This document shows, one piece after another, positions 45,192-46,511 of a DNA stretch of 64,000 bases (positions within the stretch are counted from its first letter, which is position 1; each line of letters opens with the position of its first letter). Source of the DNA: Verrucomicrobiota bacterium (lineage in GTDB: Bacteria > Verrucomicrobiota > Verrucomicrobiia > Verrucomicrobiales > Verrucomicrobiaceae); assembly GCA_025360015.1 (NCBI GenBank), contig JANYCZ010000036.1, positions 124,001 to 188,000 on the forward strand. The letters run 5' to 3'. Made by a program: the position numbers and the translations under genes. A model generated the notes under the pieces. It was not told the DNA's origin. It saw nothing but the letters and a program-made list of their open reading frames with translations, and did no database searches.

Positions 45192-46511
45192 TCACTTGGG
45201 CCACTGACCATCCACAATGGGTTTCAGCGTGAGCCTGGCAGGGTCAACGACGACGTGCTTCACTTTCTGGCGTTTCCACGTGTACGTGATGTGGACGAGC
45301 CCATCGCTCGTCTGAATGATCGCCGGATAGCTGAACTCCTTCTTCGGCTCATCCTCCACCACAAGCGCCGCCTCCCACACCTTTCCATCCTTGCTGACGG
45401 CAAGGTTCAGTGGGCTGCGCCCCTTGGCGGTGTGATTGTAGATCAGCAGATGGCGGCCATCCTTGAGCGTGACGGCATCCGTGCCCGAGTTCGGATTCGG
45501 CAGCTCAGTCAGCGAAATCTCACCCCATGTCCGACCAGCATCCATGGAGGCGATTTGAAAAACCTTGCCCTGCCGCGTGCGCCCCACAGCTTCAAGTTTG
45601 TCACCGCCAAGATCAAGGATGCTCGGCTGAATGGCGCTCACCGTCAGCCCGTCATGCAGCAGCTTCGTGCGCTCCCACGTTTTGCCGAGATCCCCAGTGC
45701 GCTCAAAGTAAATGGCCCACGCACTCGGCTGCTTGTCCGTCTCGTTGCTCGTGGGACAGAGGATGTCACCGTTCGGCAGTTGCACCGGCTTGTTCTTGAT
45801 CGGGCCATAGATGCCCTCCGGCAGCTTCTGCGCAGCCGACCAAGTCTTGCCACCATCAGCCGAAGTCTTGAGCTCACCCCACCAGGTGCTCGGCGAAGGC
45901 CCCACTTTGTAAAACAGCATCAGCGGTGCCCCACGCGGCTGAAACAGCACGGGGTTCCACGTCGGGTGGCGAGTGCCATCAGGCAGCACTCCATTCGCAG
46001 TCTCCGCACTCTCCGTCCACTTCCCATCCACCAGCCGCGACACCCAGATGCACACATCTGGATTCCTCTCCGCCGTGCCACCAAACCATGCAGAAACCAT
46101 CCCCGTGGGCGTTTCGACAATCGTCGTCGCATGAATGGACGGATAAGGCCCCGTGTCATAGATGTACTCAGATTTCAAGAGCCCGGGCTGTTCACCCTTC
46201 GCCTTTAACCACTCCCACGAGGTCAGTTCACGACTGTCATCAATCTTGTGCCACACCACCACGGACGCCTGACGAGCAGCGGCAGCGTCCCTCACATTGA
46301 GCACGAGCTTGTAATTCATCCCGGCCACGACCTGCTTTTCCCCGCTCTCAATGCTTTGCAGCTTGAGCTTGGGATCGTGAGCCTTGACGGCAAATTCGGC
46401 GGCTGCCACCGTCTCTTTGTCTGTGGGTGAAACCGGGCTGAATCCTCCCGCAATCTGCGCGGTGAGATTGCAGGTCAGCATGGCAAAGCAAAGCAGTGAA
46501 AAAGATTTCAT
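45192..46511 (-). CDS. Cystatin-like domain fused to a sialidase (secreted)
   Basis: 439 residues, signal peptide to about residue 19. Residues about 20-98 read as a cystatin of the phytocystatin type: Gly22-Gly23, AAEFAVKAHD at 37-46 (the plant LARFAV-type helix motif), QVVAG at 60-64 (the cystatin inhibitory loop) followed by NYKLVLNV, and VVVWHKI. Residues about 110-435 are a sialidase propeller with Asp boxes SADGGKTW, TGDLGKTW and SMDAGRTW. It should cut terminal glycans, while the N-terminal domain could inhibit papain-like proteases or serve only as a scaffold. The stop and start sit in the glycan cluster, 12 bases after the lyase gene. Confidence 0.8.
   Translation of the reverse strand: MKSFSLLCFAMLTCNLTAQIAGGFSPVSPTDKETVAAAEFAVKAHDPKLKLQSIESGEKQVVAGMNYKLVLNVRDAAAARQASVVVWHKIDDSRELTSWEWLKAKGEQPGLLKSEYIYDTGPYPSIHATTIVETPTGMVSAWFGGTAERNPDVCIWVSRLVDGKWTESAETANGVLPDGTRHPTWNPVLFQPRGAPLMLFYKVGPSPSTWWGELKTSADGGKTWSAAQKLPEGIYGPIKNKPVQLPNGDILCPTSNETDKQPSAWAIYFERTGDLGKTWERTKLLHDGLTVSAIQPSILDLGGDKLEAVGRTRQGKVFQIASMDAGRTWGEISLTELPNPNSGTDAVTLKDGRHLLIYNHTAKGRSPLNLAVSKDGKVWEAALVVEDEPKKEFSYPAIIQTSDGLVHITYTWKRQKVKHVVVDPARLTLKPIVDGQWPK

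Follow-up and report, generated by a model that had tools for sequence, protein, structure and literature searches.

A cystatin-superfamily domain precedes a putative sialidase-fold enzyme in part of a Verrucomicrobiota genus

Gene organization and neighborhood

The window, by which we mean the whole 64,000-nucleotide stretch of Verrucomicrobiota DNA analyzed here, contains a gene of 439 amino acids plus stop at 45192..46511, whose open reading frame is read on the minus strand from 46511 to 45192 (open reading frame list, Pfam, and AlphaFold). The encoded protein consists, in order, of a signal peptide, a cystatin domain, a linker, and a sialidase-fold propeller. The signal peptide occupies residues 1–19 (MKSFSLLCFAMLTCNLTAQ; 46455..46511, minus strand), with the cleavage place inferred by eye, and the signal peptides of plain (cystatin-less) relatives differ from that of the fused protein. 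The cystatin domain follows at residues 20–103 (46203..46454, minus strand), as placed by Pfam, PDB sequence matches, and AlphaFold. A linker, AKGEQPG, at residues 104–110 (46182..46202, minus strand), the length of which varies among relatives, leads to the sialidase-fold catalytic part at residues 111–439 (45195..46181, minus strand). The AlphaFold model of the whole protein had a pLDDT of 88.6 and a pTM of 0.75, with pLDDT below 50 over residues 1–21. The fusion is no assembly artefact, as it recurs in 15 of 48 genomes of the genus and in two further families.

Just upstream, at 46524..47468 on the minus strand, lies a gene for a protein of the DHDPS/N-acetylneuraminate-lyase superfamily, which probably shares one operon with the fusion gene. 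This lyase scored 103.6 bits against the nanA model (cut-off 382) and 165 bits against the dapA model (cut-off 206). The wider context includes a divergent AraC-type regulator (47566..48426, plus strand) and, downstream of the fusion gene, a GDSL/SGNH hydrolase (43895..45127, minus strand) and a second BNR_2 propeller protein with no cystatin match (42751..43893, minus strand). We also observed a single protein at 39940–42195 that combines a ricin-type lectin domain, an esterase domain, and an SGL/gluconolactonase-like region. A DHDPS-family lyase adjoins a BNR_2 enzyme in the Planctomycetota loci L064 and L068 as well. These neighbors would fit the breakdown of keto-acid sugars, and the retention of the lyase in Planctomycetota hints at such a substrate.

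The gene order RecN, AraC regulator, DHDPS-family lyase, enzyme was complete in the fused loci L022, L024, and L029 and in the plain loci L031 (L010 gene), L033, L034, L039, L044, L045, and L047, and was partial, ended early, or was absent in the remaining loci. We considered a split gene, with a separate cystatin in the gap of ~550 bases that precedes the enzyme in some plain loci, and rejected it. In L031, L033, L044, L046, and L047, this gap between the lyase and the sialidase gene holds a different open reading frame, of the GxxExxY type (L031:5541-5921, and the same place in the other four).

Sequence and predicted fold of the cystatin domain

Residues 20–103 form a cystatin-superfamily domain, as judged by profile models, fold, N-terminal glycines, and the QxVxG motif together. 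The search with cystatin profiles that the sequence-only reading had proposed returned two Pfam models, both over their curated cut-offs: SQAPI (PF16845; E=5.3e-12, 46.4 bits, cut-off 31, residues 31–100) and Cystatin (PF00031; E=1.3e-5, 25.8 bits, cut-off 22.2, residues 22–77). Across 14 control genomes, PF16845 matched only twice with E values up to 1, both times below the cut-off. When the first 103 residues were searched by sequence against the PDB, potato multicystatin (E=2.2e-9) and oryzacystatin-I (2.7e-4) were found. With an E limit of 0.01, a profile of 30 related domains matched 76 different PDB sequences, and the best 60 of those 76 were, by name, cystatins, fetuin-B, and affimer and adhiron binders or constructs holding them.

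The landmarks named in the sequence-only reading are present in the order of a cystatin: Gly-Gly at residues 22–23 (46443..46448, minus strand), which corresponds to the cystatin N-terminal trunk; AAEFAVKAHD at 37–46; and QVVAG at 60–64 (46320..46334, minus strand), followed by M and NYKLVLNV. The helix motif of phytocystatins is [LVI]-[AGT]-[RKE]-[FY]-[AS]-[VI]-x-[EDQV]-[HYFQ]-N, and AAEFAVKAHD, compared with it by eye, fits at most positions and departs at the first, eighth, and last. The same reading had likened the order and spacing to those of phytocystatins, and this held except in the Trp segment, where the translation has Trp at 87, 99, and 101 but does not reproduce the "PW" loop.

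Conservation was concentrated in the first inhibitory loop. Q41, V43, and G45 (domain numbering) were invariant in all 30 domain rows, and QVVAG was the most conserved five-residue stretch of the alignment, with an identity of 0.97 versus a domain mean of 0.61. Gly-Gly was kept in all 16 rows fused to the sialidase. At the second-loop site, 15 of the 16 fused rows had VVW, or a sequence much like it, directly before (H/R/Q)-K-(L/I), and in these 15, which are the rows that cover the site, K-(L/I) mostly precedes D; the sixteenth row, L142, is truncated in the alignment and reads VVF-R-K-L there in its full sequence. Standalone bacterial cystatin rows had QPW, QAW, or QSW in six cases out of 12. 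Two of the three cystatin contact elements are thus kept, and affinity could be low because the second-loop Trp of phytocystatins (PW) is absent in the 15 fused rows that cover the site.

AlphaFold2 modeled the domain, given the 30 aligned rows, with a pLDDT of 94.6 and a pTM of 0.84. The model consists of a short strand, a helix at domain residues 13–26 (residues 32–45 of the protein; 46377..46418, minus strand), and four long strands, with a turn at 44 inside QVVAG (41–45). In the whole-protein model, too, QVVAG forms a turn between two strands, with the strand break at 62–63. A fold unlike that of cystatins had been named beforehand as the outcome that would speak against the assignment; what was predicted is one helix on an antiparallel sheet, and a Foldseek search with the domain model placed cystatins at the top. 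In VIA-align, potato multicystatin (4lzi) came first (Z 14.1, 2.0 Å, 84 residues) and was followed by the tarocystatin of a papain complex (3ima_D; Z 14.0, 1.6 Å, 79 residues). Human cystatin E/M (13.4) and latexin (13.1) lie within Z 1 of the top and count as tied, and monellin, which shares a common fold with cystatins, reaches Z 12.8. In the cystatin topology, the C-terminus exits at the end opposite the inhibitory edge, so an enzyme attached there need not cover the QVVAG edge.

The best Pfam match, SQAPI, is named as an aspartic acid proteinase inhibitor. Like squash SQAPI, the domain might accordingly inhibit an aspartic protease, or it might inhibit a protease of the bacterium itself and so regulate turnover of the enzyme. 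By structure, however, tick, plant, and human cystatins came first in Foldseek and SQAPI (2kxg) only 46th. SQAPI was not among the best 50 VIA-align rows, which carries no weight either way. We regard this explanation as improbable and return to the bacterium's own proteases below.

The sialidase-fold enzyme

The catalytic part matched BNR_2 (PF13088; E=2.3e-84, residues 138–408), and the whole-protein model aligned with the Micromonospora sialidase 1w8o at Z 37.6 and 2.4 Å over 313 residues, with 18% identity. The sequence-only reading had described this region as an Asp-box sialidase; the fold and BNR_2 support a sialidase-type propeller, and the short Asp-box repeat model PF02012 scored 12.9 bits, below its cut-off of 27. 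Segments resembling Asp boxes, S-x-D-x-G-x-x-W, are visible by eye, and Asp boxes are also indicated through BNR_2.

Sialidases of the GH33 type have an arginine triad that includes the RIP arginine, a nucleophilic Tyr, and an acid Asp. R311, R365, R414, Y395, D152, and E270 were invariant in 26 aligned rows, an alignment that left out L021, L055, and L092 (the named stretches of L021 and L055 contained a stop). No conserved Arg was found in these 26 rows around 116–135, the region expected to hold the RIP arginine. The GH33-type sialidases of Micromonospora, NanI, NanB, and NanC share the bacterial-sialidase propeller fold with the enzyme described here, at 14–19% identity among the structural matches listed, but they carry the RIP arginine, whereas this enzyme family has no conserved Arg at the place expected for it. 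We therefore use "sialidase" as a fold name for a putative enzyme, the substrate of which may be a keto-acid sugar.

Distribution and fusion partners of the domain

Within the genus, PF16845 gave 16 matches in 15 of 48 genomes. Fifteen of these matches were in one frame with the same enzyme, including one frame (G006) that ends at a contig end. The sixteenth is a second match in G057 (C19, locus L115), in a separate frame of 157 codons without the sialidase. This L115 cystatin is very divergent and forms a long branch in the cystatin tree. PF00031 was found in 12 of 56 relatives. One of the 12 is G050, which lies outside the genus and has a frame of 150 codons. Across the order, 24 of 239 genomes had a match, 22 of them over the cut-off, and the frames of nine order genomes outside the genus (126–227 codons) are too short for the enzyme. 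Matches occurred in 12 of 384 genomes of a class sample, and a profile search found 13 of 384 in the sample around G815 and eight of 387 in a phylum sample.

The same sialidase fusion was present in two other families of the class, at L135 (G546), L141 (G507), and L142 (G520). The named contigs that carry the full fusion, L022–L030, belong to metagenome bins of Verrucomicrobiota (Verrucomicrobiaceae, Prosthecobacter), and some of the names refer to ponds or lakes. A tblastn search of the domain against 72,556 plasmid records gave no match at E up to 0.1. Standalone cystatins in other Verrucomicrobiota families (L116, L139, L143, and L149) have starts that look, by eye, like those of lipoproteins, with a Cys after a hydrophobic stretch. 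Within the loci found by profile, open reading frames were chosen by a QxVxG-like text pattern. In two rounds of this selection every locus yielded such a frame; in a third, L157 gave none and was taken as cystatin-less from its match range and frame length alone.

The domain was also found with other partners. In L144:1372-2622 (G546), L145:349-1659 (G520), and L156:1498-2754 (G827), it precedes a domain of ~300 residues. Beyond the cystatin models, L144 and L145 had no Pfam match up to E 0.01 and no NCBIfam match up to 0.1, the L144 tail had no PDB match up to 1, and the L156 partner had only a CusF match in Pfam, below the cut-off. Frames 64–65% identical to L144 occur in G546 itself (329 codons) and in G810 (331 codons); they match L144 from residues 98 and 115 and, by their length, lack the cystatin. 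In L158:820-1776 (G815), the cystatin (SQAPI, 41.0 bits) lies C-terminal to a 3-keto-disaccharide hydrolase domain (PF06439, 127.2 bits, cut-off 26.8). Counting the sialidase, the cystatin family is thus joined to three or more kinds of protein whose start resembles a signal peptide, and it can lie on either side of the partner.

Other N-terminal domains are common on bacterial sialidases, and of the three kinds of partner, two can be matched, by family or by fold, to glycan-active proteins. This would suit an accessory domain that binds carbohydrate or positions the substrate. Among the structure and profile matches listed, however, no carbohydrate-binding protein stands out by name, and the conserved surface of the domain is the protease-binding loop, so we consider such a role unlikely.

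Presence, absence, and recombination

Closely related copies of the enzyme occur with and without the cystatin domain. In 35 genus genomes, the best match covered the cystatin in 12 and the enzyme only in 22, the latter defined as a best match beginning at residue 100 or later, and G022 had a weak match only. Since 22 of 35 genomes have the enzyme without the cystatin, the domain is dispensable. Plain orthologues up to 94% identical occupy the same locus; enzyme identity was 94% to L010 and 92% to L011, both of which have only a signal peptide before the enzyme. DNA of the window and of L011 aligned (71–85%) up to and including the end of the lyase gene and the initial ATG-AAATC, after which the alignment was mostly gap over the cystatin. 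In several fused rows, the domain is followed by ADPAILTTEYIYD, the same sequence with which mature plain enzymes begin.

A tree of the catalytic part with 61 tips (13 fused and 48 plain) required 11 changes of the fused/plain label, four of them forced by well supported branches. The label was no more clustered than when shuffled, with a shuffled mean of 11.9–12.0 changes and 148–150 of 500 shufflings as low. The tree took 61 of 86 distinct catalytic parts, leaving out 25 rows (L076–L100), and was built without the fused genes L135, L141, and L142; G006 ends at a contig end. It was made by a quick method with SH-aLRT support only, and 21 of 58 forks were open. In a cystatin tree of 82 columns, which used the longer L142 sequence, the sialidase-linked group needed three changes, with the backbone unresolved, which fits one origin of the fusion as well as several. 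The scattered presence of the domain in the enzyme tree may reflect losses, gains, or exchange.

One gene showed the two parts to differ in ancestry. In L103:451-1809 (G032), the cystatin cassette resembles that of L025, and the enzyme resembles that of plain L056, its sister in the enzyme tree (99). Compared with L025, the cystatin was 91% identical and the enzyme 73%, and the synonymous distance of the enzyme (1.0) was larger than that of the cystatin (0.31). In 60-base windows, identity to L025 was 80–95% from the signal peptide through the cystatin (68% in the first window), 53–83% over most of the enzyme, and 83–88% in the last windows, and part of the DNA before the gene was 90–98% identical. 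Identity to L056 followed the opposite course, at 36–56% over the cystatin and 75–95% after it. This shift indicates that the cystatin cassette and enzyme of this gene have different ancestry. Across the two main fused groups, enzymes of L002–L006 were 83–88% identical to those of L007, L008, L009, L025, and L027, whereas the cystatins were only 50–58% identical. Taken together, these genes show the domain to behave as a presence/absence module located between the signal peptide and the mature enzyme and exchanged by recombination.

The cystatin evolves faster than the enzyme and is under purifying selection. Its dN/dS was 0.04–0.31 (59 of 78 pairs computable), compared with 0.02–0.25 for the enzyme; synonymous distance could not be computed in 19 of 78 cystatin and seven of 78 enzyme pairs, and many of the other distances exceeded 1 and are rough. 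With dN/dS in this range, the cystatin is not decaying. The more rapid change outside QVVAG could reflect an arms race or a weaker constraint. Scattered presence alone (11 changes versus a shuffled mean of 12.0, with 150 of 500 as low) would also be expected of a neutral passenger, spread by recombination and unused. We consider this very improbable given the low dN/dS of the cystatin where computable, a Q-x-V-x-G motif that is invariant across 30 rows, and attachment of the family to three protein kinds.

Proposed function

We propose, with a probability of roughly 55%, that the domain is a portable cysteine-protease-inhibitor module that shields exported enzymes from foreign papain-like proteases. 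This proposal draws on the predicted fold, on the motif and how well it is conserved, on purifying selection, on the occurrence of the enzyme with and without the domain, and on a single recombinant gene; inhibition itself we infer. The enzyme would be exported, with the cystatin domain directly after the signal peptide, and the Gly-Gly and QVVAG loop would block cysteine proteases of the papain-like type (C1A) outside the cell by wedging into their active-site cleft. Candidate sources of such proteases would be algae, protists, or animals. The enzyme, and perhaps nearby exported proteins too, would thereby be protected from digestion.

Some cystatins have lost inhibition, so the fold and motif alone are no proof of it. 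Kordis and Turk 2009 describe such a loss in vertebrate cystatin families (PMC2784779).

The protease content of the genomes favors a foreign target. Searches of G000 found no match to C1A (PF00112) or C13 (PF01650) proteases, and C1A matches were few in the genus (six of 48 genomes), although many of these genomes are incomplete bins. In the three genomes searched for the chagasin-type inhibitor I42 (PF09394), which included G000, there was no match in G000. Four of the six genomes with a C1A match are among the 15 that carry the fusion, and C13 matches, which were weak, occurred in 17 of 48 genus genomes, seven of them over the cut-off. A protease of the bacterium itself may therefore be the target in those genus genomes with a C1A (six of 48) or C13 (seven of 48) match, which bears on the turnover explanation raised above; G000, with neither match, argues against it.

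The strongest alternative is that the domain serves in packaging, export, or docking, binding a partner at the surface or along the export route and inhibiting no protease. Such a packaging or deployment role has been proposed for bacterial cystatin-like domains N-terminal to lipobox-bearing toxin domains (PMC12419801). It would suit the sialidase and L144-type fusions, in which the signal peptide leads directly into the cystatin. Docking would not obviously keep QVVAG as the most conserved stretch, though, and the plain orthologues do without the module and have signal peptides of their own. The cystatin is also C-terminal in L158. On balance, we judge this explanation unlikely, albeit one to be taken seriously.

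If the domain does act as a protease inhibitor, the cassette of signal peptide and cystatin might further serve as interchangeable armor, put on and taken off secreted glycan-active enzymes by homologous recombination. Shielded and unshielded forms would then persist within the genus, maintained by encounters with papain-like proteases secreted by protists, algae, or animals. We offer this extension tentatively, as possible but short of probable. Should the domain inhibit proteases and extend the lifetime of the enzyme, the fusion would be a straightforward natural way of making enzymes resist proteases, and it would bear witness to protease warfare where bacteria degrade glycans. The natural with/without series of one enzyme, up to 94% identical and at the same locus, makes the purpose of the domain directly testable.

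Comparison with known systems

The domain shares its fold, Gly-Gly, helix, QVVAG, and the order and spacing of these elements with phytocystatins such as oryzacystatin, tarocystatin, and potato multicystatin. It differs in being bacterial, single, fused to a propeller enzyme, and without a PW second loop.

Bacterial cystatins have been described since 2009, and their purpose is proposed rather than demonstrated in the papers cited here. Kordis and Turk 2009 report them in Vibrio, Photobacterium, Polaribacter, and Geobacter, list none in Verrucomicrobia, and propose that they defend bacteria from host proteases (PMC2784779). The Polaribacter cystatin is described there as triplicated and fused to another gene (PMC2784779). 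Compared by description only, these proteins belong to the same superfamily as the domain reported here and differ in partner and phylum. The toxins of the lipocone study likewise place a bacterial cystatin-like domain N-terminal to a secreted effector, but their partners, again compared by description only, are toxin domains coupled to immunity proteins, whereas here the partner is a glycan-active enzyme (PMC12419801). The sequence-only reading had known of no described fusion of this kind. For sialidases this stands, as we found no cystatin-sialidase fusion described in the open-licence papers searched, but bacterial cystatin fusions as such have been published (PMC2784779, PMC12419801).

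The closest idea that we found in print is cyspin, in which a protease inhibitor is likewise joined to secreted glycan-degrading enzymes. Cyspin joins the cellulosome through a dockerin. The cyspins of the C. cellulovorans cellulosome are cysteine-protease inhibitors that are said to inhibit when expressed heterologously and are considered to guard cellulosomes from plant proteases (PMC3444338, PMC4305082). As described there, cyspin is a member of the cellulosome complex, whereas the arrangement reported here is a direct gene fusion, and we liken the two by role, not by inhibitor class. Each half of the fusion is of a known kind; what appears to be new is that the two are combined, that the cystatin is present in some copies and absent from others, and that it has been exchanged.
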